From the NCBI GenBank assembly GCA_030374765.1, contig JARGXX010000075.1, forward strand, positions 930,001 through 994,000: 64,000 bases of DNA. Reading direction: 5' to 3'. The notes beneath the pieces are model-generated. The model was given only the letters and a program-made list of their open reading frames with translations. It made no database searches and had not been told where the DNA came from. The position numbers were made by a program, and so were the translations under genes. Of this stretch, positions 4,332 to 61,697 are shown piece after piece. Within the stretch, counting starts at the first letter, position 1. Each line of letters starts with the position of its first letter. Source of the stretch: Agarophyton chilense (lineage: Eukaryota > Rhodophyta > Florideophyceae > Gracilariales > Gracilariaceae).

Positions 4332-6185
4332 ATGATGCCCTGGACTTCGACTACTACTCCGCGCTGTTTGGACTCAGTTATGTTTTTTGTACTCATCACT
4401 GGTCTACTCCAACTCTCCTTAGGATCCGCAGAGGCCGGTGACGACCCAAAAATAAATTCTGTCTTCGACCATCCCCTCTGGTGCCCTAGACGTTATCTCT
4501 CTGTATCTACATCGGCCCCGATTGCGGAGTACTATCGCAATAATGACATAGAAGCTGAAAAGATGAGACAGGTTTTCAAATTTCTCAACCGGCTATTGGG
4601 CATAATGGACCGCCGTCGCGATGATCCCACCAGTGAGTTGGGATGCAATTTGCATGGGCAATCAGATTGGGTACAGTCTTTGACAGAAGCAGCCAAGAAG
4701 CGCCAATTTCGTGCAGCAAAGAACGAGATTGATAAATCTTGTCCGTCGTCAGTAGAATTTTCTCAGGGTGAGACGCAGGATCACGGAAAGCTTATGAGTA
4801 GCCAGGACGTGAAGGAAATGCTCGAAAAAGCTGTGTTATCGATGAAGTCTGCCGTCCTAGCCAGCCCAGCATCACCACTCAAAGAAAAAATGGTTAATTG
4901 GACAGATACTGTTTATCCTCTTGCGGCTTGGGACCTTAGGCATATTTCCCAACAGTGTCAGTTGCAAACTGTATCTGCTTTCCGAAAGGAGGGAAGGCTG
5001 TTCTTGCGAGTGGCCGTAACAAATCGGCCTGTAGATGACCACGTCTTAGACTATGACCGCCAATACATCCAGGAGTGGGTCAAGGACGACTTTCGAGACT
5101 CGCTAAGGATGACCCATCCAGAGCGGATTCCTGTCAATTCCATACTGGACAGGGGGGGCCGTTTGGAGCGGACTTCGACTCTTTTAGAAAAAGGTCACGG
5201 CAGAGCTGCTCTAGACTCGCACGGGATCATGCTTTTGGACGATAATCCTGCTATAGTCAAAGCGTTGAGGCAGAATTCTGTCGCTATAGACCTTGCAGAA
5301 GATGGCATTGCGCCCAGTAACATTGCCATACTTGCCTTACCATTAGCAGGGACTCTAATCCCTGTTGCCTTTTTGGCCGAACTATGCACGTCGGCAATGG
5401 TTGTGTACATCATTCTCACGGATGTATTTTCAACGGTACCACTTCTTACCAAGGGCGTAGAGCTCATTGGAGCATTTAACCTTGAGCGTCGTGAAACGGT
5501 TGCGTACTATGTGGGAAATAAACAGTTTGGAGAGATTGAAGTTTGGAGTGCAAGTTGCAAAGGTGAACCCAAATTCCACGCAATCGGGGTATTGTTTGTG
5601 GTGATCGCTGTCATTTCTACTTTAATTGGTATGTTCTTGGAGGTTTTTGCAGGGATTGTGATGCTTCGAAAACGGAGGAGAGAAGGATGGGATGTCGGAG
5701 GACCGTTTGGAAAAGTGGCTTTTGACACCACAAAGTTGAGTTTGTTGGGTAGTGGTACTGGCGGGGACCTATTGGATAGAAGATATTCAATTGATGATGA
5801 TAGTAGTCGAGTCCAATCCAATCCAGAAATCGGACGGCCTTATACGAAGCCGACTACCAAAGAGAATAGATGGTGTATATGGGGTTCGAAGAGTGCTCCC
5901 AAGATTGTGTCGCCTATGACGCTAATGGTTGATGATAGGATGGCTAGAAATGGAGCCTGCTATTCAATCGAGGAAAAGCAAGCTACCGTATCTTGTGAGG
6001 GTGAAAACATGCTGATGGGCGGTTACAAGAAGCTATATGAGTTGATAGGTAGGGTGAAAGGTGACGAGATTAGAGACTTCCCGGCTGGGGTTGGAAATGA
6101 TGGTATATCGAGCGCTGAGCGAGTTGCGAAGAAAAGTGGGTCTGACGGATACGACGATGAGTTGGATGTTGAAAATGCCAGGTGA
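4332..6185 (+). CDS. Predicted secretory-pathway membrane protein, unknown function
   Basis: I do not recognise this family. The two adjacent ATGs at 4332 and 4335 give a protein of about 617 residues; the same frame stays open slightly further upstream but without an ATG. Residues about 15-32 (VMFFVLITGLLQLSLGSA) form a hydrophobic signal sequence. A soluble, probably lumenal region of about 300 residues with several cysteines follows. Hydrophobic segments lie near residues 330-375 (NIAILALPLAGTLIPVAFLA onward, possibly two passes) and near 417-445 (AIGVLFVVIAVISTLIGMFL). The last is followed by the basic stop-transfer stretch RKRRREG and a polar tail of about 170 residues, probably cytosolic. 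The topology is inferred from hydrophobicity alone. The gene converges on the nucleoporin gene that ends at 6472. An uncharacterised lineage-specific surface or endomembrane protein is the fairest call. Confidence 0.75.
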   Translation: MMPWTSTTTPRCLDSVMFFVLITGLLQLSLGSAEAGDDPKINSVFDHPLWCPRRYLSVSTSAPIAEYYRNNDIEAEKMRQVFKFLNRLLGIMDRRRDDPTSELGCNLHGQSDWVQSLTEAAKKRQFRAAKNEIDKSCPSSVEFSQGETQDHGKLMSSQDVKEMLEKAVLSMKSAVLASPASPLKEKMVNWTDTVYPLAAWDLRHISQQCQLQTVSAFRKEGRLFLRVAVTNRPVDDHVLDYDRQYIQEWVKDDFRDSLRMTHPERIPVNSILDRGGRLERTSTLLEKGHGRAALDSHGIMLLDDNPAIVKALRQNSVAIDLAEDGIAPSNIAILALPLAGTLIPVAFLAELCTSAMVVYIILTDVFSTVPLLTKGVELIGAFNLERRETVAYYVGNKQFGEIEVWSASCKGEPKFHAIGVLFVVIAVISTLIGMFLEVFAGIVMLRKRRREGWDVGGPFGKVAFDTTKLSLLGSGTGGDLLDRRYSIDDDSSRVQSNPEIGRPYTKPTTKENRWCIWGSKSAPKIVSPMTLMVDDRMARNGACYSIEEKQATVSCEGENMLMGGYKKLYELIGRVKGDEIRDFPAGVGNDGISSAERVAKKSGSDGYDDELDVENAR

Positions 6186-6471: not shown

Positions 6472-7368
6472 TTATCCATAAAGACCGGAAAGAAAGTCAA
6501 AAATGCCCGATTGTCTCTGTGGGGTACGTATTATCGTAGGTGTTGCATTCGGAGCATGGCTATCTCTTCTGAGCATCGTCGAAGGCGTCTTGAGCGGATT
6601 GATAGGAGAAGCAGACGGCAAAGGCATAGAGTTTGAAAAAGGGCTAACATTTGCAACGCCAGGGGATGCAATAAGCATTCCTTTTTCAATCTGCTCATCA
6701 GCAAGTTTGGCAACGTTAGGTTCTGTACAAGGCACAGCTCCGACCATTGTCTCAGTACCAGCCAAGATTCTCCAGGGGCGTTGAAGAGCTACCTGAGCTT
6801 GTAGTGGCGTTCGATATAATATATGCACCCAATTTCCTTTTCCCGGAATTGTGCGTACTATCTCTCCGTGACGGCGAAATTCTCGAAGAGCCTGCGCATC
6901 CATCGCAGGCGCAAAACCAAATACAGTGATCCATCGATCTTGAGGCCCAAGCGTCGGTGTACGAGCAGAAAGTGAGCTAGGAGTAAGAGAAGCAGCGGGG
7001 GAGGCTGAGGGCGAACGTAATACGCGAACACTTGGGGGTCCGGTGTCCAACAGCGACTTGTTTGGCGGAACGTGTGGCGTTCTCGGTTTCGAAGATGGAG
7101 TGAATGCACGAGTTGTGCGCTGTTCTTCTAGAGGTCTATCTGGACGGAGGCGATCGTTAAAGGTTAAAGGGGTGCGTGGCGCGAAGATTGGAGGGGTTTC
7201 TGAGCGGGTTGAGAATCGGCGTTGCGCGACTGATTTAGACGGTGTGGAGAAAGTGGCAGGGGGTTGGTCTTCGTGGTTTGGTGTTAACGACGTGCCCGAA
7301 AGAAGGTAGTTTGGGAGGCGCTCGCGGACGGGGGGTTCCTCTCGCTTGGATTTCGGAGAGGAAAACAT
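6472..7368 (-). CDS. NUP35: Nucleoporin NUP35/NUP53 family (MPPN RRM-like domain)
   Basis: This 298-residue protein has the layout of the nuclear-pore protein Nup35/Nup53. A disordered Ser/Pro/Arg-rich N-terminus (1-142) is rich in TP and SP sites. An RRM-type Nup35 domain follows at about 145-218, seen in RWITVFGFAPAMDAQALREF and in the block around GNWVHILYRTPLQAQVALQRPW; this domain dimerises in the family rather than binding RNA. A second disordered linker leads to a C-terminal amphipathic end, IFDFLSGLYG (289-298), equivalent to the membrane-bending helix of Nup53. Bulky hydrophobic residues at the very tip agree with that role. The protein is expected in the inner ring of the pore, bridging Nup93/Nup155 partners and the membrane. 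The ATG at 7366-7368 is the first in frame, and no intron is needed. The gene is convergent with the membrane-protein gene, with about 285 bases between the stops. Confidence 0.88.
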   Translation of the reverse strand: MFSSPKSKREEPPVRERLPNYLLSGTSLTPNHEDQPPATFSTPSKSVAQRRFSTRSETPPIFAPRTPLTFNDRLRPDRPLEEQRTTRAFTPSSKPRTPHVPPNKSLLDTGPPSVRVLRSPSASPAASLTPSSLSARTPTLGPQDRWITVFGFAPAMDAQALREFRRHGEIVRTIPGKGNWVHILYRTPLQAQVALQRPWRILAGTETMVGAVPCTEPNVAKLADEQIEKGMLIASPGVANVSPFSNSMPLPSASPINPLKTPSTMLRRDSHAPNATPTIIRTPQRQSGIFDFLSGLYG

Positions 7369-9980: not shown

Positions 9981-10740
9981 GCCCCCGATCGCCCCCACTG
10001 GGTGGTCCCCCCCTTTATCACTTGCCCACTCCCGTGGAATACAGCTCATATCTGGTCTGCTCTCTTCTAGCATCCCGCACTCTCCCCGCTTGGCGTGCCG
10101 GTGAACCTCGGCCTTACACCCCGACTTAGTCGTGTTAACTCCGGAGAGGCTCCGTCGCCGTGCTACCCTCCTTGGAGGAAGACTCGGACATCTTCGTGTG
10201 TTTCCGCCGCCCTTGGCGTTGCACTACAAACTCGGCGCCAGTATCGGTTTGGGGAGGGCGCGCGACGACGTCGGCGCACGAATTGAGCGACAAACATTCA
10301 GGTAGGGACTGTCATGAGGGCGATGCAGTGTAACTATCGCGCTCGTGGACACCTTTTTGGTAGTGGCCCTGCTTGCTTGCGATTCTGTTTCCGCATAGCC
10401 CCCTGTCTAACCAAGTTGGTATCTCACCCTTCCCAGTTACTCAAACTTCAATTCCCTCCTAAGTCCCTGCGCGCGCCGTCCCGCCTGGTCGTTCCCACGG
10501 CTCGACAACCCTTTAGGTATTGCTGCCCTTAATTGGCGGCTTCGCGACCGTAACCGTGCTGTCCGGCTTTCCTTGAAGGTTTTTTGGCTTCTCGACCTTT
10601 CAGGTTTCGTCTACCTTGTAAGGATTGACTCGTGGCGCCGGTGGGGCCTGAGCCTGCGTCGATACAACCATTGAGGTGTTGGCCTGGGTTCGTGGTGGAA
10701 GCTTCCGGTTGTGAGACCTTATTGGTGTTGAGCGGCCCCG

Positions 10741-13329
10741 TCGGTAATTACGCGACCTTTTTCCGGTTTTGCATTCCGGTTTACCGTCAAGGTGATGACA
10801 GGATCGCGCCGCCTCCACGCACGCGTTCGAACCAATTCGGTGCCACGTCGGTGCACCTCGCGCCGCCTCGTGGATTCGTCACCGATACCTCGAAGGGATG
10901 GGTCGTCCCCACAAGCAGCACCAGCGCCCGAGAGATGTGAGGTGCCGCTTACCATTGAGTTTGAAGAAGTCGGCGATTCCGAGGGGATTGATACCCCTGC
11001 AGTTTTGCCTTAAAGGTCGGATTGGTCTCGTTCCACGATACCTCAAAGGTTTGGAACCGCTCGCGACCGTACGCCGGCCACTGTTGCACCTGGAAGGTCG
11101 GTGTCGGTAGTACCAGAAAGGTTGGAAACGTTGGCCGTCTCTCCAGAACGGACCGAGGAGGCTCCACTTCAGAAGGATGAATACCCGCTGGTGTTCACCG
11201 CGGCGGTGGAGGTCGAGTCATCACCTCATTCGTCGGGTCGAGCTACAGCCTTCCCAACCATGTAAGGTAGCGGCCCATCGTGTGGCCGTGGACGCGGGGG
11301 TAGTACCAAGAGGGTGACTGGCTCGACTTCTCAAACGCCTACCAATACTGGTTTTGGCAGCGTGCCTGTCCCTGCGACACAGTTCTCCCCTGGAACTCCG
11401 GCTGACCCGTACCAACGCAGTGGTGGACTTCCTCCCACAACACAAACCAATTGGGCTCACAATCTCGCGTTCGGTGCGGCGAACCGGACGACGAGTCAGT
11501 ATGGACCTTTTGGTATTACCTTCGACCAGGTGACGAACAATGACCTGTTGAAGCACGATTGGCCTGTGGCGGTGCGTAATTCGTCATTGCCGGCAGCTCT
11601 TACCAGACCACAATAGGATATTTACTTGGGTTTGTCCCGTTAGAACTGCGAGCGCCTTCGCTTCGTTCCATTGCTTTTGAAGAAACGGGACCAAGAGTCT
11701 CAACCTTGTCAGGGTTGACTGGAAAGTTACCAAAGTCAGCAGCGTCATACACCTTTGAGGTATTTCATCCCGCCGATATATCCGAGCGACTTGCCGTATG
11801 TGCGCATCGACCCGGACCTGGATTATTACCGTCGATTGGTGGTGCAAGTGTGCCAGGACCCGTCTATTCCGTAGACTTACATTCCGGTTTCACCTGACGT
11901 CGTTTCCCTGAATCGGCCTTTCACCACCATCAATTGGGCTGACCGTATTAGTTGGGGCGAGGATGCAGCGACGGAGAGTCGCGTTTGCACTCGCAACTCT
12001 TACACTCGCGTTATGCATATGTTTCATAACGTCAAGTACTTCTCACAACCTACGAAGGGCAGACGCGATTGGTACGTGCTTTGACCAGAGTGGTGGGGGT
12101 CCTATGAGGTTCCGTTATCTCTGAGCGTGCCCACTCCGCCGGTTTTGGCGTACTTCGGGAGTCAGATTTCCCGGATCCTAGAGCAGTACTACCTCATTTG
12201 GTCGATTGCCCTCTCGGAGAGGACCGTGTTGGTTGCCATCCTGGCTCTGGAGGCCGCCCATTACGGTATCGATTGCGATTGCGACAATCCCGACTCTGAC
12301 ATATACCGAGATGGTGTTCAACCTGTAGGTCGCATCTTCTTCATACCTCCGAGGGTTGCCAAGGATACTTTCCGATTTGGTTACGAGAACATCGTGGAGG
12401 GGACCGATTATACCGTGAAGGACTTGGACTCGTATCTCGAGCAGAGCAAGAACTACCATTGGTATTCCCATCAAAGTTGGGAGGCTTTCGATCCCGCAAC
12501 TTGGGAGGTTGTGCCTCGCCACGCCGAATATTATCCCAGGGAGCCTCCTGTTTATGGAGCTCCCGCGAGCCCCGAACCTTATCACGGGACTGTGGAGACA
12601 CCGGTTGGTCGTTATGCTGGTCCCTTCCCGTCCGAGCCGTTACCTCAAGGTCGTAAGTCGCCTGTCCTTACGGGTGTGACTCCTACTCAACCGAGCTCCT
12701 CGCGGGTTGCTGGTCCGGTTCGACCTCTGTTGGCGGAAATTGCTCGTATTCCGCCTCAACCTATGATGGATTCTCCGGCCGTGGTCGGTTTGCTGGCTCG
12801 AATTCGCCAGTCTTGCGTTACCAACTTTCAGAGAGCTGGTCTTACCTCAGTGGTTGCTGCATTATCGCTCCTTGAAGGTTTGCTGCCGCGCCATGCGCAA
12901 TACATGAAGGCGCTGAACCAACTTGGTGAGTTCCGGATTCAGTTCCAGTTGGACATTGACCAACTGGCCACCCGTCAGGTTGCCAATCTGGCAAGCGTCT
13001 CTGCTGCTGCGCCATCTGATCCTTTGACGGATCCCCTTCCAGGTGCTAACTTGAACCCTGCGGTTTTTCAACCCGCTCCGGCGGTTCCTCTCGTTCATTC
13101 TCTTTTGGTTTTTACTCCTCTCCCCAGTGGCGGGGGTACCGCTCCTCCCTACCTCCTAGGTCGATGGCTCCTAGCATTTCTGCAAATTTTTCTCCGTGGG
13201 TGGTCAATAACACGGGTCCTCCTGATTCCATTGCTCCTAAACCTACAGGTCCTTCTTAAAGTAAATTGTTGTCTCTTCTTGTCTCTTATACTGTTATATT
13301 TGGTTTTTCTTTCGTGTCCTCCCTTGTAG
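10741..13329 (+). pseudogene. Antisense ORF of G1 (homologue of 18230-20059), unknown function
   Basis: One plus-strand frame runs about 863 codons with no frameshift and only seven internal stops (11011, 11263, 11614, 11641, 11716, 11872, 12082) before the terminator at 13327. About 40 would be expected by chance. The longest uninterrupted piece is 12085-13329. The N-terminal third is Ser/Thr/Pro/Arg-rich with an NTGFGSVPVP motif. A mid region contains INWADRISW and, near 12350-12440, VAKDTFRFGYE followed by DYTVKDLDSYLEQS. A Pro-rich linker (about 12490-12770) precedes a helical C-terminal part (RPLLAEIARIPPQ onward). The motif order matches the G2 copy. It lies antisense to pol, between the G1 3' LTR and the chromodomain, with stops about 90 bases apart. 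I recognise no known domain; it is a decayed copy of an element-encoded protein. Confidence 0.65.
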
Positions 13330-13419
13330 GTAATCTGACAAGCATATGCGTCCACCTTCTGCGGAAAACGACTTTTTTTCTCCCCCTTCCTTTGGCCTGA
13401 GTACCACGGAGGTTTAAGG

Positions 13420-13887
13420 TTAGCCGTCTGCAGGCATCGGCTCCTTGCGACGGCGCCAGTACCTGATACGGAAGTGTGGGGGCGTTGCGGCTGGGGGTTC
13501 GAGGGTGTCCCCTCCTGAGCCCGAGCCATACCATCTGACGGTGTACTTCAGACCATTAGAGGTTCGCGTGTGGTTCACAAGACAGTCAATGGGAAATTCC
13601 TCTGAGGTTTGGTCCTGATCTTTAGGGGGAACGCCACCTCGAGGGTTCATATGTTCCGAGTTGGGAGCTTCGTTTGTGGGAGCCGGCTCGGGAGCTCCCT
13701 CTGTTACCGTGTGAAGTTCCAATTCCGTCCCTGTTAGAGGGTTGTAATCCGGATCATCCCGTTGTATTTCATCATTCACCTCAATTGGGGTGGGGTCCTC
13801 CGAGGGTCGAGTGCGCAGAGCTACCCCTCTGGGCTCTCGGGCTGTGGTGCCTGCCTTAATGCGATGTTGAACGCTTTCAGGTGCCAC
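13420..13887 (-). pseudogene. G1 integrase tail with chromodomain
   Basis: An acidic Pro-rich linker leads to a chromodomain-like end, FPIDCLVNHTRTSNGLKYTV then RWYG, a DTLEP in place of the usual DTWEP, and FRIRYWRRR. In chromoviruses this module directs integration to marked chromatin. The frame is shared with the upstream GPY segment (13903-14277); one in-frame stop between them separates the two. Confidence 0.7.
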
Positions 13888-13902
13888 CTTAATACGATCA
13901 AT

Positions 13903-14277
13903 TTATATCGTATTCGGTATTTCATCTTGTTCAACCGTAACGGTGTGGTCTGATGCGTTCAATACCCTATAAGGTCCCACTGATTTGGGTAGAAGCTTCG
14001 AATTGATATCTCTATCAATAGCTTCATCGTCCGCTTCATCATCCGGCCGTGGTCTTTTACCTGAAGGTGGGTTGTCTATGTAGACATATTGTCCCGATGA
14101 TACAGAGACCACTTTGGTTACCCTACGGTCGTAGTCGGCCTTGTACCGCTTATGGGCTGCAGTGAGGCGGCTCCCTGCATGTTTGAGAGCCCTTCTCAAC
14201 CTCACAAGGGTATTTCGCTTGACCTGGGCAGGGTTCAGTGCGCCAGCTGCAGTTCTGGTGTTATGGTATCCCTGCAC
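13903..14277 (-). pseudogene. G1 integrase C-terminal (GPY/F) segment
   Basis: This continues the integrase after a frameshift near 14277. It has the helical linker (RLRRALKHAGSRLTAAHKRY), a basic stretch, SSGQYVYIDNPPSGK and the GPYRVLNASDHTVTVEQ motif, the GPY/F signature of gypsy integrases. Confidence 0.75.
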
Positions 14278-14906
14278 TACAATACCTGGGGGTGTCGCGA
14301 AAGAACCAAATGAAAGGGAGTTGTATGCGTTGACCGATGTTTCTGAAGGTTATAAGAGTAGGTGAGCGGTTGCACCAGCTCATCCCACCCAGTTTGGTGC
14401 TCTTCCGTATAGTGTCGTAGCCTTGACACCAATGTGTTGTTAAAGCGCTCGACCTGTCCGTTCGTCTGCGGGTGGTAGGCAGTAGTGAAATATGGCTTGA
14501 TACCCAAGAGGTTACACACTGCTTCGAAGAATTCCGATGCAAGGTTTGAACCATTATCGGTGAGTAAATACAGTGATGCACCATACGGGTAGACCCAATT
14601 GTTGAGGAACGCGATCGCCAGCTTTGTTGACTTCGTCTCCTGTAAAGGTATCGCTCTCGTGAGCTTCGAGAACCTGTCGGTGATTACTAGAATGTGCTGA
14701 TACCCATTCCTGTTCTTGGGAAGTGGTCCTAGAAGGTCCATCGCAACAAACTTCAGCAGACCCGCTGCTGGAAACAGCTTGAGGTACTTTCGATGCTCTC
14801 GAATACCACCGCGGGTACGAACACAGGATTCGCATTGACCTACAAAGGTATAGACATCATGTGCCATTTGAGGCCAATAGAACTGTTGCCTCAAGGTGTA
14901 ATACAT
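14277..14906 (-). pseudogene. G1 integrase catalytic core (DD35E complete)
   Basis: This 209-codon open segment holds the second half of the zinc finger (CESC, residues 25-28) and the whole integrase core. The catalytic triad is visible as Asp57 (AMDLLGP), Asp117 (LLTDNGSN) and Glu153 (GQVERFNN), with exactly 35 residues between the last two. The core itself looks intact, while frameshifts on both sides (about 14895 and 14277) separate it from RNase H and from the C-terminal domains. Confidence 0.88.
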
Positions 14907-15793
14907 CCTGGTCGCACCGGGCGCCCCAATAGTCGCGGGTAGTGCGCTAGATACAAGACTCTCGGACGCAGTGCCTTTGGAACCACCTTTTGATGGCTAC
15001 CATCCAAGGTTGACCTTCTCATGATGTACCCATTGTGGTCCACATCGAATGGAAATCCTTTGAAACGGATTTGATGAGCCAGGATTCTGCAGTACGCATC
15101 CTGTGCCTGTTCTCGTATAAATTCCTCTCGGGTTACGGGCATGACGTTAGTTTTCTCTAGGGTCAGTATCTGCGTTGCCATGTCGGTTTTCCGCAAGGCA
15201 CCTTCTTCAGGTAAGTCCCAACATCCTTCTAGGTGTTCGCCGGTACCATTTTGGTTTGATGACACCAAAAAGCAAGGGATATCATCACCAATAGGTTCTG
15301 TCTCTAACCCTGAGGTGTTTAAGCGTGACATAGCGTCAGCTATGTTGTGCTTGATACCTGGACGGTACTGTACGTCGTATTCAAACTCCGACAGTCTCAA
15401 CCTCCAACGGGAAAGTCTACCAGATGCATCTGCGAGTCCGAGGATCCTCCTTGAGGCGTCGTGGTCTGTGCGCAACGTAGAGCGCTCACCATAAAGGTAT
15501 GGACGGAGCATCAACATGCTCCACACTACTGCTAGACATTTCTTCTCGGTTACCGTGTAGTTCTGCTCCGCCTCACTCATAGCGCGGCTCCAGTACCCGA
15601 TAGGTAATTTGTCTCCGTTGTGCTGCTCCTGCATGAGACAACAACCAATTTGGGCATGGGATGCATCCGTATCCAGCGTGTACGGTAGACCTGTCTTCGG
15701 TAACGCTAAGATTGGCGGCGACAACAGCGCTCGTTTCAATTCCTCAAAAGTATCCATTTCGTCGTTCGATAGTCTCAAACCGTTCAGGTTCAC
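14891..15793 (-). pseudogene. G1 RNase H and integrase zinc-binding start
   Basis: This 300-codon segment carries a Ty3-type RNase H: the TLDTDAS aspartate, EKKCLAVVW glutamate, RTDHDA aspartate and HNIADAMSR aspartate mark the four-acid site. The following connection and the first half of the integrase zinc finger (LYLAHYPRLLGRP) end at a frameshift near 14895. It is out of frame with the RT segment upstream, the shift lying in the 15744-15793 overlap. Confidence 0.85.
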
Positions 15794-17491
15794 CTTTCTG
15801 GAGATTCTTGTTGAGGGGAGTCGCTATTTTCGCGAATCCCTTCACGAAGCGACGATAGACGGTACATAAACCTATAAAGGATCGTACGTCTGTCTGGGAT
15901 CGTGGCAACTGGACCTCCTGTACGGCTCTAATGTTGCTTGGCAAAACCTCTAGGGTACCAGGGCCTATGATGTGTCCCAGGTATTCAACCGTTCTGGTAA
16001 AGAAGACGCATTTGCGTGGCTTCAGCGTCACCCCCGCCTCAGGTAGGAGGGTTAGTACTGTGCGTACTTGTGCAAAGTGCTCTTCTACCGATCTGGAAGA
16101 GATGATTACATCATCGATGTATACCAAGGCGGTTGTCCATTTAACCTTCGAAAGGATGATGTCCAGCGCCCTTTGAAAGGTGGCTGGAGCATTGAACAAC
16201 CCAAATGGCTTCCGCGTGAAGCGAAACAAACGTGTATGTCACGTGAAGGTCGTTTTATCTCGATCTTCCTCACCTACAGGTACCTTCCAATAACCACAAT
16301 TGGCATCCAACGTGGTAAATATCTGCGCATCTCCGAAGGAGTCGATGCACTCATCCATTTTAGGTATCGGGTACGAATCCCTGACCGTCACGCTATTGAG
16401 CCTCCTGTATTACACACAGAACCTCATACGGTTATCCCCTTTCTTCTGAAACAGAACCACGGGACTAGCCCAATCTGAGTTGGCTGGTTCAATTACACCT
16501 TCTTGGATCATTCGCTCCACTTCTTTGAGTTCTACTTCTCTCGCCTTCGGACCTGCACTGTATGGTTGCTGATAAATCGGCTTCGAGTCAGGGAGGAGCT
16601 CGATGCGATGCTGTGTGGCCTTAATTTGGCCCAGATGGCCTGACCACATAGTTTCAAACTCCTCCAGAAGGTCGAGAATACGGCCCTGCAGTTCCCCGTT
16701 ATCTTCACCGATCTGAACTGTATCTCGCCATTTCCTCTCAGGGTCAGGTTCCTTTTCTTTGTCTACCGATGCCTTATCAGTTAGCTTTGCTTCCAAGTTG
16801 GTACTTATCGATACCTTTGTGGTTTTGGACACATTTGCGCACCCCCCTTCCATATCGAAGGCGACCTCGCCGAGATCAGTGTGAGCTACGGTGAAGACCC
16901 CTTGTGGTGACGGCAGTGCGATGCCAACATTGGTATTCATAGGCAACTTCACGTCGTGACTGCTGAAGTTGCTGAGACACACCTTAAAGGGTTGATTTGG
17001 GATGTTGTCGACAGTCTCGTTGGCCATCAAGGTGAGGTGTCGATGTGCTCACGTCGGATGGTTTTGTAGTTTGACCAGCTCGTGGGTCGCAGACGACACC
17101 GGTACCAATATTTGGTGCATTGGCGGGATAACAACCTGTTTGGTAATGCGCACTTTGTTGGAGACCGTTTTGGTGGATATCCTCTTGTTTGGTTTGACGA
17201 ACCATCCCCGTTTGGATTCCTTATTACCTAAAATGGCAATTCGTCCCCTGTGACGTAGGGCAACTGTATGGGAACCAGGAAGGATAGCTTTGACATGTCT
17301 GTAATTGAAGTTCGTACCTAGTAGGCAGTCTGTTGGTAAACGGTCGACAACAAAGAATTGCAGACTTACCTTGAGGTGTCCGAGCTGCACCACAGTGGTG
17401 AGCATATCTCAAAGGTTTAATGGGCGCTCATTTGCATCCACCAGCGGGTTGTTGCCGGGAGGTCGGCTCAAGTTCCGAAGTACCGCCTCAG
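15744..17491 (-). pseudogene. G1 protease C-terminal half plus reverse transcriptase
   Basis: One frame resumes directly at the CTCAG target site with the rest of the protease (TDCLLGTNF, then a KQVV..PP.H linker) and runs through a full reverse transcriptase. It includes SDWASPVVLFQKK, TTLDANCGYW (motif A) and ALVYIDDVIIS (YxDD box). In-frame stops occur at about 17408, 17049, 16410 and 16238; the one at 16410 replaces a residue in the RFCV(D)YRRLN motif. The C-terminal connection RSFIGLCTVYRRFVKGFAKI reaches the frameshift near 15780. Confidence 0.85.
17487..17491. repeat. Target-site duplication of G2, left copy (CTCAG)
   Basis: CTCAG abuts the left LTR tip TGTAGTAT and recurs at 27140-27144 after the right LTR tip ATACTACA. 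Five bases is usual for Ty3/gypsy integrases. Confidence 0.9.
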
Positions 17492-18205
17492 TGTAGTATC
17501 CGCTCTATCGGAGAGAGCAGACACCTGCGACAGCGTTCGGACTGTCGATGGGTCGCTTGCAGCGAATGAAAAGGGGTGGTAGTGCTACAAAACCAGCGAG
17601 CTAGAAGTGGGGTGTAAGGCCACTACTCTCCCGCGAGGATGAACAGTGCAACTGTAAAACGTTAATGGAACGTAGGTACGAGACGGCTCGTGAAGTGGTT
17701 GGGGGCTGACTATCTATTATAGCTCGTCTAGATCTCCGGTTAAGGAATCCTAAGCGAGGAACAGAATAGTCATGATGCCCATGTTGTCTCCTTTACTTGG
17801 AGTTGGCGCTCACCTCTGGTACCCTATATACTGTGTACCAGGGTGAGTGCCCAAATAAAAATATAAATAATACCCAGTGGTCAGCCACTTAGACAAACCA
17901 CTGTATGGGTGTGGTCCTTAAAGGACGTCTAGCTACAAAGGGTAGTAAAGCCCTCCACGTGGATCGCTACTACATGCGCCGTTTCCAATATGGCATTCCC
18001 CTAGGAAGGGTCGCAACTATGCGCGCGCCGTGGTAAGCCACTCGACCCATGACGCCACGTGTTCCACTAAGACATTCTGCCTCTAGGCATCTTATGCGGG
18101 ATGCCGCTTCATATCACAGTGCTGATGATAACACTCACTTATGAGTTCCAACCGCAACTTCGCGAAACCACCCTACCGGATTCCCCGACATAGTAGAATA
18201 CTACA
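17492..18205 (-). repeat. G2 3' LTR (714 bp)
   Basis: It runs from TGTAGTAT to ATACTACA. A 17-18 bp stem (17805-17822 with 17835-17851) holds CCTATATACTGT in its loop, followed by an AT-rich block. By eye it differs from the right LTR at a few percent of positions. It also retains about 40 bases (TATCCGCTC... to near 17530) missing from the right copy. Confidence 0.93.
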
Positions 18206-18216
18206 CACCCCCCTCG
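18206..18216 (-). promoter_or_regulatory. Polypurine tract of G2
   Basis: On the minus strand a GAGGGGGGTG run lies directly before the 3' LTR, the standard plus-strand priming site. The antisense ORF starts only 14 bases further on. Confidence 0.7.
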
Positions 18217-18229
18217 TTAAGCGCGAACC

Positions 18230-20059
18230 ATGGGGGACGCAAGAAGCGTTTATACGCAGTCGGACTGGTGTTCCGGGTACTCATCGTCATCACGAATTCT
18301 TCGCCGCCCGACCAACTCTTACAGTTCTCAACAGCATTCTGTTCCTCACCGCTCTTCAGCTCGATCTCTCGTGATGGATCCGGACGCCGGGTCCAACCCG
18401 TTCCAGCCCTCCTCTGAGGATGCGCCTTCTGGGGCTCCGTCTAACACTGCTGGTTATTATGTGTCGCAGCCTACTGCTCAACTCGGTCCATACCGTTCGT
18501 TCCCCACACCGTACACCGGATTCCGGTCGGTACCGTTACCTCAGCCAACCATGGCTCCGATGCCGAACGCGGCTTACGTCGCCTCTGCGGGTGTGATTCG
18601 AGCTCCTTCTCGTCGTGCTCAGCGGAGCTACCCGCACCCTGCGGATTTCTATGGACGAGATCCTCTCGACAACATTGAACTTTTCGCGCAAGCGCCCTGG
18701 TTTGATCTAGTTGCTATCCGCGATGACGCGTTGATACAACAGTATGTACACGGTGGGTACTTTCCTGACGGTATTCCGGAACACGCGATTTAAAGCGACG
18801 ACTGGGCGAGCCATATTGCTTTACCAGACAACGCGATTGCGCGACATTCAACGGAAACCTTGTCCGAAGCCCGTATGCGGTTCACCAAGCTGATTTACCA
18901 GCTTCTCCACCCATTCATCAGTACGGTTCTCCTCCTGCAAGACTGAGAACTAGATTCCTGGAAAGCCCGTACCAACGGTGAAGGTTACTTGTATATCGAG
19001 ACACTCGTTGAAGTCGATGTTAGCGGTTGGCGCGGTGTGCGCGGTGTGTGTGATGCAGCTCTCTGCTTTCAGCAACCTCTTCTTCGTGCGGAGTTCCGCT
19101 TCCTTCGAAAGCGTGACTTTGCCTATTGGGATTATCCCCGTTGGGAACGTCGTACTCGATCACGTCTGGGCTGTTTGGTGCCTTATCAAATGATCGAGAT
19201 TGACCGCATCCGGCGAAGAGCGCGCTTCGGGCGCTACATCGGTATTTCGGAGCATTGGGCGGCGATCGAGAGTCCTCGTGGTTGCCCTGTGGAGCTTCCA
19301 CTGGCGATCTCCTACATCGGGTCCGCGTTGGTTAACGACCGGTTCTCGGGATATTAAACCGTTTTTTATACCGGTTTTATCGCCAAGATGGCCGTCTTCC
19401 TCCTGTGGGATGCTTATGATACCTTTAGAGTTTGGTACATGTCGCCCACAGCGCGAAAGTATGCGAGAGAACTCGATCTTTCCCTTGTCCTGGGATCCCG
19501 TGCGAACCATGCCAACTTCCTCCATCTTGTGGATTCGATCGGCATTGTCGATTGGTCTGGAGTGCCAGCTGATCAATTCGCTCGCGGAACCTGTGCAAGA
19601 CACCACGACCATTCTCCTGGACGAACAGCAAGTGCTGGAGATTTCGTTTGGTACGACCCCTGGACGCGCCAGTTGATCACCTCCGAGCAGGCTCGCTTTC
19701 TTCGGGAGAACCCGCGTGACATGCCACCGAACCAGCTTATTGGATACGTGTACGATGCTACTCCATCCGAGAACGGAGAGGAACCGTATGAGGAAGCGCC
19801 GGGAGCTGAGGCTGAACTCGGTTACGAGGACGAGCCAGAGCTGGCAGGCGTGGCGACTTCCGTCGACTAATCCGCAGCGGCGGGAGTTGCTCAAGAGAAC
19901 TTTCATGGGTTTACCCAACAACCGAGTGCAGTGCCGGTCGAAGATCCAGGCTCGGATCCGCTTAGGCAGTTCCTCTTAGATGCGGGCTTTCCCGTGGACC
20001 AAGTTGAGGGTGATCGCGCACAGCTTCTTGCGAACCTGCGTTCTCGCACGTCTCTTTGA
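18230..20059 (+). pseudogene. Antisense ORF of G2 (homologue of 10741-13329), unknown function
   Basis: It starts at an ATG in good context (GAACCATGG), 24 bases inside the element from the 3' LTR, and keeps a single frame for 609 codons. Four internal stops interrupt it (TAA 18791, TGA 18944, TAA 19355, TAA 19868), where about 28 would be expected by chance, and there is no frameshift. The N-terminal 150 residues are Ser/Pro/Arg-rich and include PYTGFRSVPLPQ. A middle part has SDDWASHIALP and a basic DRIRRRARFGRYIG. Next come WDAYDTFRVWY and ARELDLSLVLGS, then an acidic Glu/Ala/Pro stretch and a short helical end (FLLDAGFPVDQVEGDRAQLL). Motifs TGFxSVPxP, xxWA(D/S)xI, DTFRxxY and DL(D)S align in order with the G1 frame. 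No known domain is recognised. The stop codons are each one C-to-T change from CAA or CGA. Confidence 0.7.
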
Positions 20060-20339
20060 TGACCCTAGAAAAGACTCCTAGTCAACTATTCAACACCCTT
20101 GCGGTGGTATCTTGATACCAAGAAAACTCCGGTGACTTCGTGTCTTCACGTTCCCATCTTATCTTCTAGTCTTCATCTCTTCTCGCTTCTCGAGTTCTTC
20201 AATCCTTCTTCTCGCTTCTCTAGTTTGTCATAGGTGATAATCAGTAAATGTCCTTTGCTTGCGTGTCTTCACGTTTCCTCTTCATGATTTCTTGTTTTAT
20301 TCTCGCCTTTCGAGTTTTTACTACCTTTGTAGCCCATAC

Positions 20340-21311
20340 TTATAAATGGGATGTGCCCATGAGCCCGACTATCGAGGAGTCGATCTCCCTGGGGAGTGGT
20401 AATCGCATGCGTCGATTATATCGCACGAGCTGCGAACGGGGGATATGAGCTATAAGTTCCCACGTATCCGTTTCCGGAGGAAAACCGTACCCACGCACTC
20501 GATACAGTATTTCTCTAGTATCTTCATGCTCGCCATGTTCATATATGCGATTTATAACATATTCATGGGCGTTTCCCAATGCTTTCGCTGTTGGCGCGAG
20601 ACTCCTGTTAACTGGTTTGAAATGCCTTAGGGCTGACCCAAGCGTCTCTGTGTTAGCAGTCTCAGCGTCGCTGACCGTTCGCTCGTCGACTAACTGTCGT
20701 TCTGCTCGCAGGGGCACTGTACTCATTCCTTGAGAACCTTTCTCAGATAAAGAGCTATCCTGTTTTCCAGGTTCCATAGAAGCGTACTTCTTCCTACTTC
20801 TCAATTCCATTCGTGGATGAACTTCCTTCGGTTTATCCGATTCTGACTGCTGTTCGGTGGACGATGGTGCTTGCACCACGGCATGAGGCGATACCTCTTC
20901 TCCTTCCTGCCCACGGGGGATGGGAGCCGATATCGGCGGAACAGCGAGTGGCGCTTCACATGACGGTTCAGCCTGAAGCGGAAACGGCGCGTTTTCGCGT
21001 GCACTCGTTTCCAAGTCCTTCGGGCCAAAGTCCAAAACATCTTTCCTGCTTTCAGGTTCCATTTCTGTACTTACGGGTGTGCGCGTGCCACGGGGCATAT
21101 CTCGATACTTCGAGAAGCGGTCGTTGATTACCAATAGGTAGCGATGACCTCGCCTTGAGCGAATCAATTCCCCTAGGATGTCGATACTGACGTATTGTAA
21201 AGGCGCTTTCGCCTGGAATAACGTCATCGGTTTCCGCTTCCTGTAACGCTTCATGCGATTCTTTGCATATGTTGTACACAACCTCACTGTAGAATGGCAG
21301 TCCATTCCCAA
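20340..21311 (-). pseudogene. G2 integrase, internally deleted, with chromodomain
   Basis: After the second half of the zinc finger (CHSTVRLCTTYAKNRMKRY) the core begins normally with VSIDILGELI (first catalytic Asp) and YLLVINDRFSKY. At about 21100 the frame jumps to an acidic, Pro-rich linker. The part carrying the second Asp and the catalytic Glu, about 85-100 codons, and the usual GPY motif are missing, yet the frame is kept. The segment ends in a chromodomain: EYVINRIYEHGEHEDTREI, LYRVRGYG, DTWELIAHIP and VRYNRR. The product could bind chromatin but not integrate. Confidence 0.8.
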
Positions 21312-21317
21312 AGTAGG

Positions 21318-21557
21318 TCAGTTAAAATCTTTTCTTAGGGTCATGAACAACTTCGTTCTTCCTGGATGACCAGACAGCCTGCTGTAGTGTGCTAGATGGA
21401 GTACTTGACTCTTCAAGACGTGTGGAATAAAGATTTGATCATGCTTTTGGACATGTCTTAACAGTATTCCTCGTGAATCGAGTGAAAAGGGGAGCTTCTC
21501 ACCCCCCGTTAAGACGAGAGCGTATCGACGCACAAAACGTATCAGCGTGTTTCTCAT
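21318..21557 (-). pseudogene. G2 RNase H-integrase connection and zinc-finger start
   Basis: It contains HLAHYSRLSGHPGRTKLFMTL, the HH half of the integrase zinc finger, and ends in one in-frame stop at 21318 before the segment at 21311. It is out of frame with RNase H, the shift falling in the overlap at 21499-21557. Confidence 0.75.
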
Positions 21558-23070
21558 TGAGGAGCTCAGTGCACGAGATTCGCTCGAGTTGAACTGAAGG
21601 GTTAGTGTCTGCTAATGAAAGGAACGGGTCTGCATCCGAATAATCATCATGGGTCTCTTGTTCATCTTCTTCAAAAGATGGTGAATGGGTCTCCATGTAG
21701 AAGAAAGGTATCTCTTCATTGATTTCGCCTTGGGTTTCTCCCAGTGTTTTGAGTCGCGATAGCGCGTCAGCTTGGACATTAGCCAATCCCTTCTTATAAT
21801 TTACTTCGAAAAAGAATTCAGAAAGGCGTAAGCGCCATCGTGTGAGACGACCAGACGGGTCTGTAATGGACAGTAACCATCGTAGAGACGCATGATCCGT
21901 GTTGACGGTAAAACGTTCTCCTTGGAGATACGGTCGCAATGTGGTTAGAGCCCAAACGACTGCAAGGCATTCCTTTTCTGAAACTGAATACTTCTTCTCA
22001 GCTGCGTTCAGCGATCTTGACCAGTAACCAATGGGTTTGCGTTCACCATCAGGGTGTGTTTGAAAAAGGGCACACCCTACTTGGTACTCGCTAGAGTCGG
22101 TATCCACTGAATATGGCAGGTTGGGGATGGGCAGCGCCAAGACTGGGGCTGTAATAATCTTTGTCTTCAGCGTGTCGAATGCTTCTGCTTCAGCTTGTCT
22201 TACTTTTTCCAGCTGTACTGGTTGTCCTTTACGCAGCTTTGCATAGAGCGGTGCCGCTATATGCGAGTATCGCGGCACGAATCGTCGTTAGACGTTGCAC
22301 AAGCCGAGGAAAGAACGCAATTGCTTCTGTGTCGACGGAGGTTGTACTTCGCGGAGAGCCGCTGTTTGTGCCTCTTGAATGGCAAGCTGTACCGGCTTGA
22401 TTACATGTCCTAAGTACCGGACGGTGCCAGCGAACCGTTCGCATTTCTTGAACTTCAAGGTGATACCTGCTCTCTGGAGTGCTTTGAGGATCTCCTCGAC
22501 ATGCCGTAAATGGCTTTCCATATCCTGGGAAAAGATGATCACATCGTCCAAATAGACTAAACAAGTCTTCCACTTGTATCTTGAGAGCACCAGAGTACGC
22601 TGGAAAGTAGCCGGTGCATTTGTTAAGCCAAAGGGCATCATTTTGAAACGGTAGAGACCGCCGTGACACGCCAATTCGGTTTTATCTTGGTCTTCTTCCA
22701 CTACAGGCACCTGCCAATAGCCGGAGTTTACGTCCAACGTGGTGAACACGTTCGCTTCTTTTAAGCTGTCAATATATTCGTCCATTCGAGGCAACGGGTA
22801 TGTATCTCGAACTGTAACTGCGTTCAGTTTTCGATAATCGATACAGAATCGTAAAGAACCATCAGGTTTTGGAACCAGCACCACTGGTGAGGCCCAAGTA
22901 GATTGAGTTGCTTCGATTGCTCCTTCTTCCAGCATTTTGCTGACATTCTCCTCCTCGATTTGGCGAGTTCGCAGGTCCGCTCTGTAGGGTGCTTGGGAGA
23001 TGGGTCGTGACCCTGCGACCAAATCAATGCGGTGTTCCGTAGCGGAGATCTCTCTTATTTTCCACATCAC
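21499..23070 (-). pseudogene. G2 reverse transcriptase and RNase H
   Basis: One frame holds a complete RT (TWASPVVLVPKPDG, RFCIDYRKLN, TTLDVNSGYW, FGLTNAPATFQR, CLVYLDDVIIFS with the YLDD box). RNase H follows (YSVDTDSSEYQ, EKECLAVVWA, NTDHASLRW, NVQADALSR). The only break is a TAA at 22288, where a Tyr is expected in CNV(Y)RRFVPRY, so a single substitution separates the two parts. Catalytic residues are all present. Towards the protease the frame is disrupted between 23071 and 23546. Confidence 0.88.
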
Positions 23071-23546
23071 ATGGATGTATACTTCTTCTGCATAGACCTG
23101 ATCTTCGTTCTGTAGCGTTCCGACACATGGGCTAAGTCTAGCTCATCGACCAGGCTCTCTGGATCCTTTGCCGTTTGCAATTGATCTCCAGACGGCGTTT
23201 ACAGTTCTTCGTCTGTGTCACCGACATGGGTTAATCCCAATATTTCTGCAGTAGAAATAAGAGTAGGGACCACCACTGTGGGATGAGGCAAAGCTGTTGC
23301 AACAACCTGATTCTTCGGTATCTGATAATCGTTATCGGTGAAGTTACTCACTAGTATCTAAAGGGGGCTACCAGGATCAACCTGAAAAATGCCGTTAGCG
23401 ACTAGCAATCCACGGGATTCGTACATCCGAGTATTCAGTTGAATTACCACGAGTCCTTGTCGTTCTGTTCTTACTTGAACCCAAGTTTGGGTTTGAGCCT
23501 TCAGCACGGCACTCTTCGCTACTCGAATCCTCAACGAGACACGTCC

Positions 23547-24185
23547 TCAGGGTTTCCCGTATTCCGTAGATGGTGGAAGTGGAGGTGCTTCAGAGAAACG
23601 ACGCATTGGCTTGTGAACAATTGGTACCATTGATCCATCATCTAGTTCCACTAGTTTTCTTCGCAGGAGAATGGCTTCGACAAACTTGTCGCAATAATCA
23701 CATCCCAGTACCACTGGTGCAGCTAACGTTTTACAGACGATGAAGCCGACTAGGAATACAAAGCGTCCCAAACGCACCACGATTCGAACTGTTCTCAGTG
23801 TCTTCACAGCATTTTTGTTGGCATCCCGGATGTCCGGTAAAGAACCGTATCGAATATGTTCTAAATCTACACGAGCGAGCTTTGATTGCCGTATAAAGTT
23901 CGGACCAGCACCTGTGTCCAGGATAGTCAATCGACGAGAAAACAGATTCCTGTCATAGCCGATGTCGGCATAGACCTTATAGTTTCTTTTAGACAATACC
24001 ACGAGGTAACTTTCCCGTTTTGACGGACAAGTATAACGTCTCCAAGGACGATGTAACTCACAGTCAAACTGTACTCGCTTTCCGTCCGGTGGATTGAATC
24101 CGTACGGCGGAAATTTGGGAGGCCTCAAGAGAATCTTGTGCTTCCAAGCGCGGGAGCAGGGAGGCGAACTCTCCCTGGTCAGCAC
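23547..24185 (-). pseudogene. G2 aspartic protease region
   Basis: A retropepsin active site LTILDTGAGPNFI is followed about 65 residues later by the second family motif, AAPVVLGCDYCDKFV (hydrophobic-hydrophobic-Gly). The domain releases mature Gag and Pol proteins. It matches the split G1 protease (MLDTGAGPNVL and TDCLLGTNF). Confidence 0.85.
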
Positions 24186-24257
24186 TACGGGATCGACTAG
24201 TGCCGAGCCCCTAGGGGCTCCCTCACTTAGTTTTCCGGTTGCACCGGCATATTAGCC

Positions 24258-24821
24258 TTAAAGGCGCCCCTTCCTACCGGGGTTCCGGGTTGTAACACTT
24301 CGGCATTCTGAGCAACCGGCTTGTTTGTCCGGCGCATTGGTGTCTGATAAAACCAACTTTTGGCTTTCCTCTTCTGAAAGTGCTTCATAATTCGTCATGA
24401 TACGACTCAGATTTTTTGCAGGAAGCGTGCATTCTGCACTCAAATGGTGTTTTCCATAACATGAGTAACATGTCAAACCTTCACGACGGTTGGTCAACAT
24501 AGGTTTTGAACGGTATGCCGTGCGAGTATCCACCCATCCGGGTTTCCCGTTCCTAAAACCTCCTTGTGGAGGCACCGTGTAGGGATAGTACATAGGGCGA
24601 CGGCCCTCCATAGCCATTAAGGCTTCCTCGTCCTGAGACTCCAAGTGTGGGAGATCCACTGTAGGTACAGAATAGTCCGTATATTTCATTAAATGGACCG
24701 CCTCCTCATGCGAGTCACTCCCTTTGGGTGCCAAAGACGAATCTCGTGAGTGCACTGGAGATTCCAGATGTAGCAGTTTGCTGCGCTGATTAACTCTGGC
24801 GGAGATCTTCTCCTTCCCCAT
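24258..24821 (-). pseudogene. G2 nucleocapsid part of gag with zinc knuckle
   Basis: A CCHC knuckle, CYSCYGKHHLSAEC (C-X2-C-X4-H-X4-C), lies in a Lys/Arg/Ser context, followed by a short segment leading to the protease. Upstream, at 24900-25184, fragments of the gag capsid occur in other frames, so gag carries at least one frameshift. Confidence 0.75.
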
Positions 24822-25184
24822 TCAGGTTCCAAAAGCCACTGAACGACGGGGGCTACCACGCGCTCTGGCCGCGTCTCCTTCAGCTTTCGCAAACTGAACT
24901 AACTCCAAAAAGGAGACTCTTCCATTCTTCTCTCAATATCGAGCTACCAACGACTTGATGCTCGGGTCCAGCCCGTCGATGTACAAGGTAATCTTGTCCT
25001 CCGTCGAGTGGAAGTTTCCACAGCGGACTGAAGCTTTGGTAAGCCTTGAGCTGTACTCAGCTTCGCCCTCCTCAGGCTTTTGGGTCACATCACTTAGGTC
25101 CAGGATCGCCTAACGTATCGCGTTTGAAGTCGCGTAACTGCGCAGCAAATACTGCACTGCCTCTGGCCATGAGGTAACGCCGCC

Positions 25185-26234
25185 TTAATCGGCTGTCAAT
25201 GATCCGCATACGGAACGATATTGCTCTAAAGCAAAACCCTTCAGGAAGTGTGGTAAATACACAAATGCCTGTGGTTCACTCATCTCTAGAGTGTCTGCTT
25301 CGGCAACGAATCGGGTGAGAAACTCGATAACGAGAATGGGTGTTTTCCGATCAAATGTTAAATCATTAAGGCCGATCTTCAATAGTTTGATGTGATCCTT
25401 CACCTTGGCGGTTTCGCGTACTAAGCGCTTCTTGCTCTTCACCTTCAGACGGTAGTACCTGTAATTCAGGACATTCCAATAAAGCAGATTCGTGCACGGG
25501 AGCACCTTCAATCCTCTGTAAGGTGAGCCTTTTTTTCTCATTAACCACAAAGACGTGTTCTTCTTCCGAGATCGGGACCTTCGATGACCATCATCACTGT
25601 CGTCGTCATCTGACATATCTGAATCATCAGAATCATCAGTACTGGAACTGAAGTCCTCCGTACTTGACGATTCATCACTCGAATAACGTGCAGACTTCCG
25701 CTTCTTACGTCGTGACTTCGACTTCTTCGAACGAGCTTCCTTCAAAGGAGCTCCTTCCTCTTTTAGCATTACTGAATCAGCAGCAGTCTGCGCATGAACT
25801 GCCGCCTCCAGGCGTTCTAAAAGAGGGTTAACTCGAGTGAGGACTTCTTCTACATCCACGGTTAAGCCGGGTAGCGCATCGAACGTATTCCCGTACCTCT
25901 CCAGTGGATGGTTCAAATCCTCACGTAGTGTTTTCACTGATGCAGAGACCTGCTTCCCATCGTCTTGACGAACGAGTGCTTGATGCGCACCGTGTAATTT
26001 TTCGACATCAGCGATAAGAGCAGCGATCTGCGATTCCAACGCAACCATGCACACACGCGAAGCGCTTGAATCAGAATTGAGACGACGCACTTCCCTGCGA
26101 AAATCATCCTCTTCTTGAGGTCCGACGACCTCAGGGTCAACTACGGCTTCTGTGGTGGGCGCGACTGCCGCTGCCACAGGGGCCGGTACATCCGAGAGAT
26201 CTCGTTCATTATTCACCGAGGGTGGGCGCGACAT
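25185..26234 (-). pseudogene. G2 gag, N-terminal and capsid part
   Basis: From the ATG at 26232-26234, 349 codons are open. An Ala/Glu-rich, coiled-coil-prone N-terminus (about 1-165) leads to a basic KSKSRRKKRK patch and a Ser/Asp run (about 185-225). The conserved retrotransposon gag domain follows (YRYYRLKVKS, TPILVIEFLTRFV, FLKGFALEQYRS). The last block aligns with the G1 gag. The stop at 25185 and shifts further on disable it. Confidence 0.75.
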
Positions 26235-26461
26235 CGCTTGACGATACAGCCGCTCTCCGGCTTCAACAGATGAGGCGAGCCTCGGTTTTGGGGGTGGTCC
26301 CGCAGGACCGGGGTGACCAGTACTCGACTGGGTTCAGGTCTTCGGCATCTTAGACAAAACCTGAGTCCAGATGCGAACCAAATGGTGTCTTCGACTTCTC
26401 GACCACGTGTTCAAACACGATGAATTCCGCAATTGCCAAACGTGGTTCGATAAACAATAAC
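26235..26461 (-). other. G2 leader between 5' LTR and gag
   Basis: These 227 bases follow the 5' LTR on the minus strand and should hold the primer-binding site. I could not match the first 20 bases to the 3' end of a tRNA with confidence. Confidence 0.5.
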
Positions 26462-27139
26462 TGTAGGTTCGGACTGTCGATGGGTCGCTTGCGGCGAAGG
26501 AAAAGGGGTGGTAGAGCTAAAACACCAGCGAGCTGGAAGTGGGGTGTAAGGCCACTACTCTCCCGCGAGGATGAACAGTGCAACTGTAAAACGTTGATGG
26601 AACGTAGGTACGAGACGGCTCGTGAAGTGGTTGGGGGCTGACTATCTATTATAGCTCGTCCGGATCTCCGGTTAAGGAATCCTAAGCGAGGAACAGAATA
26701 GTCATGATGCCCATGTTGTCTCCTTTACTTGGAGTCGGCGCTCACCTCTGGTACCCTATATACTGTGTACCAGGGTGAGTGCCCATATAAAAATATAAAT
26801 AATACCCAGTGGTCAGCCACTTAGCCAAACCACTGTATGGATATGGTCCCTAATGGACGTCTAGCTACAAAGGGTAGTAAAGCCCTTCACGTGGATCGCT
26901 ACTACATGCGCCGTTCCCAATATGGCATTCCCCTAGGAAGGGTCGCAACTATGCGCGCGCCGTGGTAAGCCACTCGACCCATGACGCCACGTGTTCCACT
27001 AAGACATTCTGCTTCTAGGCATCCTATGCGGGATGCCGCTTCATATCACAATGCTGATGATATCACTCACTTATGACTTCCAACCGCGACTTCGCGAAAA
27101 ACCAACCTATCGGATTCCCCGACATAGTAGAATACTACA
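26462..27139 (-). repeat. G2 5' LTR (678 bp)
   Basis: It ends in ATACTACA at 27139, followed by CTCAG. It carries the same hairpin and AT-rich block as the left copy (around 26745-26800). Its left end keeps only TGTAG of the tip before a deletion of about 40 bases relative to the left LTR. Confidence 0.92.
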
Positions 27140-27144
27140 CTCAG
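27140..27144. repeat. Target-site duplication of G2, right copy (CTCAG)
   Basis: It matches 17487-17491. Removing G2 and one copy rejoins the G1 protease in frame (LNSRVIP then E-A-V-L-R-N-L). Confidence 0.9.
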
Positions 27145-61692: not shown

Positions 61693-61697
61693 GGGAG

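Follow-up and report, generated by a model that had tools for sequence, protein, structure and literature searches.

In our study, two Ty3/gypsy retrotransposons of the red alga Agarophyton chilense (Gracilariales), named G1 and G2, were found to carry a long protein-coding frame on the strand opposite to gag-pol. Both elements lie in a stretch of 64,000 nucleotides (contig JARGXX010000075.1, positions 930,001 to 994,000 of the forward strand), which is called the window here and whose numbering is used throughout. The frame is real, it is fixed in place and orientation in many copies, it is homologous between G1 and G2, and it has been under purifying selection as a protein since the families split. 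It is, with high confidence, a genuine antisense protein gene of the element. An earlier note, made from the letters of the window, had proposed such a shared antisense gene; the part of its interpretation that stood is a protein-coding antisense gene common to two diverged gypsy families, flanked by the integrase/chromodomain region on one side and, in G2, by the 3' long terminal repeat (LTR) on the other.

Antisense frames of G1 and G2

10795 to 13329, plus strand: G1 antisense frame from the conserved ATG; 7 internal stops counted from 10741, end out of register with relatives
18230 to 20059, plus strand: G2 antisense frame; 610 codons including the stop, 4 internal stops in the window copy
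17492 to 18205, minus strand: G2 3' LTR, TGTAG...CTACA
18206 to 18229, no strand: G2 spacer from the 3' LTR to the antisense ATG; polypurine tract (PPT) in the minus-strand reading, by position and composition

The plus-strand frames, which the earlier note had placed at 10741 to 13329 (G1) and 18230 to 20059 (G2) with 7 and 4 internal stops, were found as claimed. The chance expectation of about 40 and about 28 stops was too high, as 300 dinucleotide shuffles of each frame gave means of 28.2 (minimum 17) for G1 and 20.1 (minimum 9) for G2. With the final stop included, the frames contained 8 and 5 stops, respectively, below every shuffle. The absence of any frameshift did not hold for G1, whose C-terminal tail was out of register with intact relatives. 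The 24 bases said to separate the G2 LTR from the ATG were recovered exactly, with the LTR ending at 18205 and the ATG at 18230. The G2 frame ends at 20059 and the C-terminal pol open reading frame (ORF) starts at 20340 on the plus scale, so that there is no overlap with a long sense pol ORF. The frame had been placed between a chromodomain and the 3' LTR in both elements; the 3' LTR was located for G2, whereas that of G1 was not identified in the window. Likewise, the chromodomain was not recognised in the two copies of the window (Pfam, E 1e-3), but in sibling copies PF00385 was found on the opposite strand beside the frame, above the cut-off in L045, L077, and L076 and below it in L025. A C-terminal pol chromodomain, the feature of chromovirus-type Ty3/gypsy elements, was thus present in the former three copies.

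The G1 and G2 proteins (P0001 and P0002) were identical at 26 of 93 positions in BLASTP (E 4e-6), and a profile of 18 relatives matched P0001 with a probability of 95.3 (E 2e-8, 202 columns). The comparison with shuffled sequences suggested in the earlier note was also run: the profile of relatives scored 63.8 over 238 columns against four intact G1 proteins, whereas 50 column shuffles gave a mean of 17.1 and a maximum of 24.3, and the reversed alignment gave 22.4. The 400-amino-acid window piece of G1 alone was not significant against the family profile (hhalign probability 2.8, E 0.016). Most of the homologous region is missing from this piece, and the homology became evident with intact relatives. 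Among the motifs reported to be shared in order, TGFxSVPxP occurred literally in each frame, at a place not covered by the aligned core, whereas the DTFR motif was left unaligned by the G1-G2 profile comparisons.

The antisense proteins are about 550 to 840 amino acids long, with a conserved core rich in tryptophan, tyrosine, and arginine and with low-complexity ends. They match no recognised domain, as had been noted: none was found in Pfam (cut-offs E 10 for 5 sequences and E 1 for 18 relatives), in NCBIfam or PHROGs (4 proteins each), or among PDB sequences. TRP28/Transposase_28 (PF04195) was absent from the same Pfam scans. Weak matches to E3_binding in 6 of the 18 members (best E 0.029) were under the cut-off and were discarded. 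In viral contigs, 30 matches to one pattern were obtained and none was confirmed.

Protein searches, each scoring the best 8000 candidates ranked by shared words, gave 19 proteins among the matches listed. These were A. chilense entries named 'unnamed protein product', a Gracilariopsis chorda protein (BWQ96_08668, P0014), and proteins from contigs labelled 'ena' or 'lgn'; no plant protein and no named host-gene relative was among the 19. In the search with P0009, 17 proteins passed, with identities of 36 to 54% to P0009, that protein itself aside.

Copies, families and selection

The A. chilense assembly (79.8 Mb in 135 contigs; a male G. chilensis genome of 76.07 Mb has been reported, PMC12502185) was searched with three stop-free pieces of the two frames. 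The G1 piece gave 104 matches, the best of 894 candidates scored, and the two G2 pieces gave the best 150 of 1315 and the best 150 of 1008 candidates; many of the matches to the three pieces had long open frames. An open frame of exactly 611 codons, without a stop in the match, was found in at least 13 of the 150 rows of the first G2 piece, some of which possibly come from duplicated contigs (C34, C114, and two rows on C115 score equally). Frames complete from the ATG were found for the G2 type (L045, 608 amino acids; L066, 604) and for the G1 type (L025, 821; L012, 818; L022, 835; L032, 836), and one copy (L057) was open over 611 codons with its ATG lost. Two further families were found. The P7-type (best 99 of 1600 candidates) shares about 65% identity with the G2 type, and the P9-type (best 79 of 1733) about 61% with P0009. 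The A. chilense protein P0007 had a 100% match in its own genome over residues 1 to 406 of 423. At least four diverged families (G1-, G2-, P7-, and P9-type) therefore hold the antisense frame.

The ends of the frame are also conserved. In 30 G2-type loci, which were picked by the C-terminal piece and hence were unselected for the start, the ATG was kept in 24 and the TGA stop in 27; in 30 G1-type loci the ATG was kept in 27 and the TAA was present in 27. The P9-type loci L074, L076, L077, and L078 contained a G2-like edge before the ATG (CTACA, a C-rich run, and G(T/C)TAAG), which is a candidate LTR edge; in L077 it lies about 175 bases from the antisense ATG. Between the PPT-like edge and the ATG of L074 a TATAAAA-like box was observed (3266 to 3272 in the numbering of that locus, minus strand). 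The other three loci have a GTAAAA variant at this place, and the box is not exactly kept. A sigma-70 promoter scan of the LTR is meaningless for a eukaryote and was left unused.

The position of the frame relative to pol was examined in the same genome. Among the best 147 of 3536 candidate matches to the G2-type reverse transcriptase (RT), 110 had an antisense frame within 9 kb, the window copy among them, and in all 110 pairs the frame was on the opposite strand and on the 3' side. Among the best 150 of 3662 matches to the G1-type integrase, an antisense match was found within 6 kb in 50; the frame was opposite and on the 3' side in 49 of these pairs and on the same strand in one. Conservation of the frame in other copies, a check suggested in the earlier note, was thus found in many copies of this genome. 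Three features of the known category aORF-3R were present: location between pol and the 3' LTR in G2, orientation antisense to gag-pol in the located pairs of both types (all but one), and conservation as a protein between families. For the further feature of this category, presence in most family copies, the two types gave differing figures, 110 of 147 G2-type RTs and 50 of 150 G1-type integrases among the matches listed.

Selection was examined within and between families. Within families, 30 copies each were compared and all 435 of 435 pairs were kept. The median ratio of nonsynonymous to synonymous substitution rates (dN/dS) of the antisense frame was 0.75 in G2 and 0.63 in G1, against 0.78 to 1.04 and 0.70 to 1.02, respectively, in the other five frames, so that this comparison of recent copies, likewise proposed earlier, gave a weak result. 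The lowest of the other five was the mirror frame, which shares third positions with the antisense frame. The antisense frame contained a median of 2 (G2) and 3 (G1) stops per copy, compared with 10 to 30 and 19 to 35 in the other frames. In addition, 21 pairs of naturally stop-free frames, most of them between families, were compared. In the 5 pairs between G2-, P7-, and P9-type frames (G2-P7, G2-P9, and P7-P9), the dN/dS of the antisense frame was 0.16 to 0.22, whereas it was 1.2 to 1.8 in the two other plus frames and 0.30 to 0.37 in the mirror frame; these values are approximate because dS is near saturation. The 12 pairs with a G1-type frame gave 0.26 to 0.53 or no value (dS infinite), and being saturated they were not used as evidence. 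The remaining 4 pairs, within types, gave 0.62 to 0.70. The case for selection rests on the between-family comparisons.

Anatomy of the elements and other features of the window

26462 to 27139, minus strand: G2 5' LTR, TGTAG...CTACA
17487 to 17491, no strand: target-site duplication CTCAG, left
27140 to 27144, no strand: target-site duplication CTCAG, right
25185 to 26234, minus strand: G2 ORF in gag position; gag by position, without a Pfam match at 1e-3
22288 to 23070, minus strand: G2 RT (PF00078, 2.6e-33)
21499 to 22278, minus strand: G2 RNase H (PF17917, 3.9e-36)
20340 to 21311, minus strand: G2 C-terminal pol ORF, remnant of integrase and tail; without a Pfam match at 1e-3
27385 to 28779, minus strand: ORF in G1 gag position, past the nested G2; gag by position, without a Pfam match
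14891 to 15793, minus strand: G1 RNase H (PF17917, 1.1e-30)
14277 to 14906, minus strand: G1 integrase core (PF00665, 3.9e-12)
10229 to 10794, no strand: G1 block 5' of the antisense ATG, common to other copies; left edge probably the outer end of G1

G2 is a complete Ty3/gypsy insertion (17492 to 27139) flanked by a 5-bp target-site duplication. Its LTRs differed by 26 mismatches over 676 aligned positions (Kimura two-parameter distance 0.040). It sits inside G1, with the integrase and RNase H of G1 on one side and the gag-position ORF on the other. In the pol tail ORF of G2, an integrase-like start seemingly runs straight into the tail. The integrase core (rve) was not recognised in the G2 copy of the window (Pfam, 1e-3), so part of the G2 integrase may be deleted. 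The profile of the antisense family showed no similarity to the G2 gag-position ORF (probability 0.1), and an origin of the antisense gene from gag was rejected.

No LTR pair was found for G1 within the window. Two DNA searches of the genome (best 40 matches each) gave the start of the repeat block, but no convincing LTR pairs. Of the 39 other copies scored, 36 have the start of the block exactly at window position 10229 and the remaining 3 have it 1 to 10 bases off; this position is probably the outer end of G1.

Several other features were observed in the window. A copia element (55111 to 61698, minus strand), apparently young, contained LTRs of 720 bp that are 99.2% identical and two long overlapping ORFs with RVT_2, gag_pre-integrs, and rve. 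It is flanked by a 674-bp inverted repeat, 89% identical (52878 to 53548 and 61698 to 62371), followed by a copia-type RVT_2 ORF (62406 to 63971, minus strand). A pair of 370-bp direct repeats, 92% identical (43704 to 48830), was found around an ORF with copia-type integrase features (45608 to 47074). An ORF with a Nup53/35/40-type RNA-recognition motif (6472 to 7368, minus strand; PF05172, 1.3e-17) is likely a host nucleoporin gene, and a 622-amino-acid ORF without a Pfam match was found at 4317 to 6185 (plus strand).

Role of the antisense protein and its known counterparts

The reading that we favour, with moderate confidence, is that of an accessory protein gene antisense to gag-pol, probably expressed from in or near the 3' LTR. 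These chromodomain-type elements would carry a third gene, which lies past pol and before the 3' LTR on the opposite strand and encodes one protein family. Its mRNA would start at an antisense promoter within the 3' LTR or directly interior to it. Such expression appears likely because only 24 bases part the G2 LTR from the ATG: with the frame opening right at the inner LTR edge, the LTR is the one place left for a promoter in G2; unlike G2, the P9-type has a short leader before the ATG. The protein would have an accessory, regulatory part in the cycle of its own element, acting on transcription, on the fate of RNA, or against silencing, and would not be a coat protein, Env, or an enzyme of the standard set. 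It would work in the manner thought for GENE23 of Grande, the TRP28 proteins of Retand, and HBZ of human T-cell leukaemia virus type 1 (HTLV-1). We give this regulatory role about an even chance, by analogy, because the position and orientation are common with the genes of Grande, Retand, and HTLV (PMC7264820, PMC11963269).

Some of our results weigh against this reading. Among the matches listed, 37 of the 147 G2-type RTs and 100 of the 150 G1-type integrases had no antisense match nearby. The selection signal within families was weak, and a test of shared versus singleton changes on two-state codons showed no significant difference; the weak signal is that of decaying copies of a recent burst and is no proof of selection today. 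A pattern resembling a nuclear localisation signal was found in only one of five proteins (P0012), and the proteins have no basic character overall, so nuclear action is without direct support.

A special case of the accessory-gene reading is a factor against silencing, by which the element would stay expressed; the VANC proteins of VANDAL transposons offer a comparison. This role would suit a gene whose promoter is its own and lies apart from the 5' LTR, and likewise a lineage-specific protein without a domain; we regard it as rather unlikely. A structural protein encoded on the other strand, whether Env-like, capsid-like, or for cell-to-cell movement, is improbable to the same degree. The large size of the protein is consistent with it, as are the site between pol and the 3' LTR, at which env-like ORFs are found (PMC7264820), and one hydrophobic stretch in the hydropathy scan of the G1 protein P0001 (19-residue mean 2.09), but the other four of the five scanned proteins reached only 1.00 to 1.39. 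A sense-strand ORF is already present in the gag position, and the family profile, as described above, is unlike that of G2. The env-like ORFs of Athila, Bagy2, and others likewise add a gene at this site, but they run in the sense orientation and contain transmembrane segments (PMC7264820), whereas the frame described here is antisense in 110/110 and 49/50 located pairs.

That the frame is a host gene picked up by the element, or a foreign mobile element inserted into it, and not a gene of the element proper, is very unlikely. The opposite orientation and the lack of similarity to the G2 gag-position ORF would suit a capture, nesting is seen in the window itself (G2 in G1), and the event could be ancient, before the split of the families. 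However, the frame keeps the same side and strand in all located G2-type pairs, occurs in at least four diverged families, starts in G2 at the PPT/LTR edge, and has no named host-gene relative among the 19 proteins listed. About as remote is a role for the antisense RNA itself, through double-stranded RNA or interference with the sense transcript. Such a role has been suggested as possible for antisense transcripts (PMC7264820), and the mirror frame is constrained too, as shared third positions predict. However, amino acids are constrained between families while silent positions are near saturation, and an open frame of 600 to 800 codons is kept across diverged families; both indicate that the protein is needed, and not RNA alone. 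A chance frame or composition artefact, to which the decayed, stop-bearing copies of the window and a within-family dN/dS not far under 1 might point, was rejected as practically negligible by stop counts below all shuffles and all other frames, by the between-family dN/dS, and by the G1-G2 score above shuffles.

The accessory-gene reading places the frame in a known category. An antisense extra ORF between pol and the 3' LTR is described for Grande, RIRE2, Retand, PvRetro13, and the fungal element Boty (PMC7264820). GENE23 of Grande has a promoter of its own, from which it is transcribed, and encodes a nuclear protein; the antisense ORFs of Grande, RIRE2, and related plant Ty3/gypsy elements are present in most family copies and have no recognised domain (PMC7264820). 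The present frame shares this, but it occurs in a red alga and in chromodomain-bearing elements, it is likened to them by description, and it is known here from sequence. The antisense ORFs of Retand have the same position and orientation (PMC7264820, PMC11963269). Retand is a non-chromovirus with TRP28 (PF04195; PMC11963269), a domain not found in the red-algal family; moreover, in the red-algal elements the region is short and filled by the frame. Boty of Botrytis cinerea is an LTR element with its antisense ORF between pol and the 3' LTR (PMC7264820), and is also likened by description. HBZ is an opposite-strand gene with an antisense promoter in the 3' LTR (PMC11963269, PMC7264820); it is a likeness for the working model, and HTLV-1 differs as a mammalian retrovirus, with no homology claimed.

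The earlier note knew of no description in such a lineage. This stands for red algae, as no report of such a gene there, nor of this protein family, was found in the open-licence literature searched, whereas the arrangement as such is known from plants and from Boty (PMC7264820). In the figure legend of a further source, an additional ORF of unstated strand and unknown function is given for chromodomain elements (PMC2864245). Antisense extra ORFs are thus a known category; for red-algal chromodomain elements, the literature searched gave no mention of this protein family.

Most antisense extra genes of retrotransposons known so far come from plants, and what they do is still debated (PMC7264820, PMC11963269). 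Our study adds a further protein family in the same position, from a red alga, with hundreds of copies, at least four diverged families, selection on the protein between families, and many naturally open frames. Annotators gain a recognisable family, whose copies are now filed as 'unnamed' or 'hypothetical' proteins. Hundreds of copies with a conserved opposite-strand gene suggest that the two-stranded layout is a working part of these elements. More tentatively, the red-algal chromodomain lineage may consist of obligate ambisense retroelements: propagation would depend on a protein whose gene stays permanently on the strand opposite to gag-pol and is turned on from the 3' LTR; this protein family, possibly with a fold of its own, would predate the split of Agarophyton and Gracilariopsis and would have no plant, fungal, or animal counterpart. 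Should the elements require the gene, ambisense coding would have arisen, or persisted, beyond plants as well, and comparative work could then test why a gene is retained on the wrong strand.

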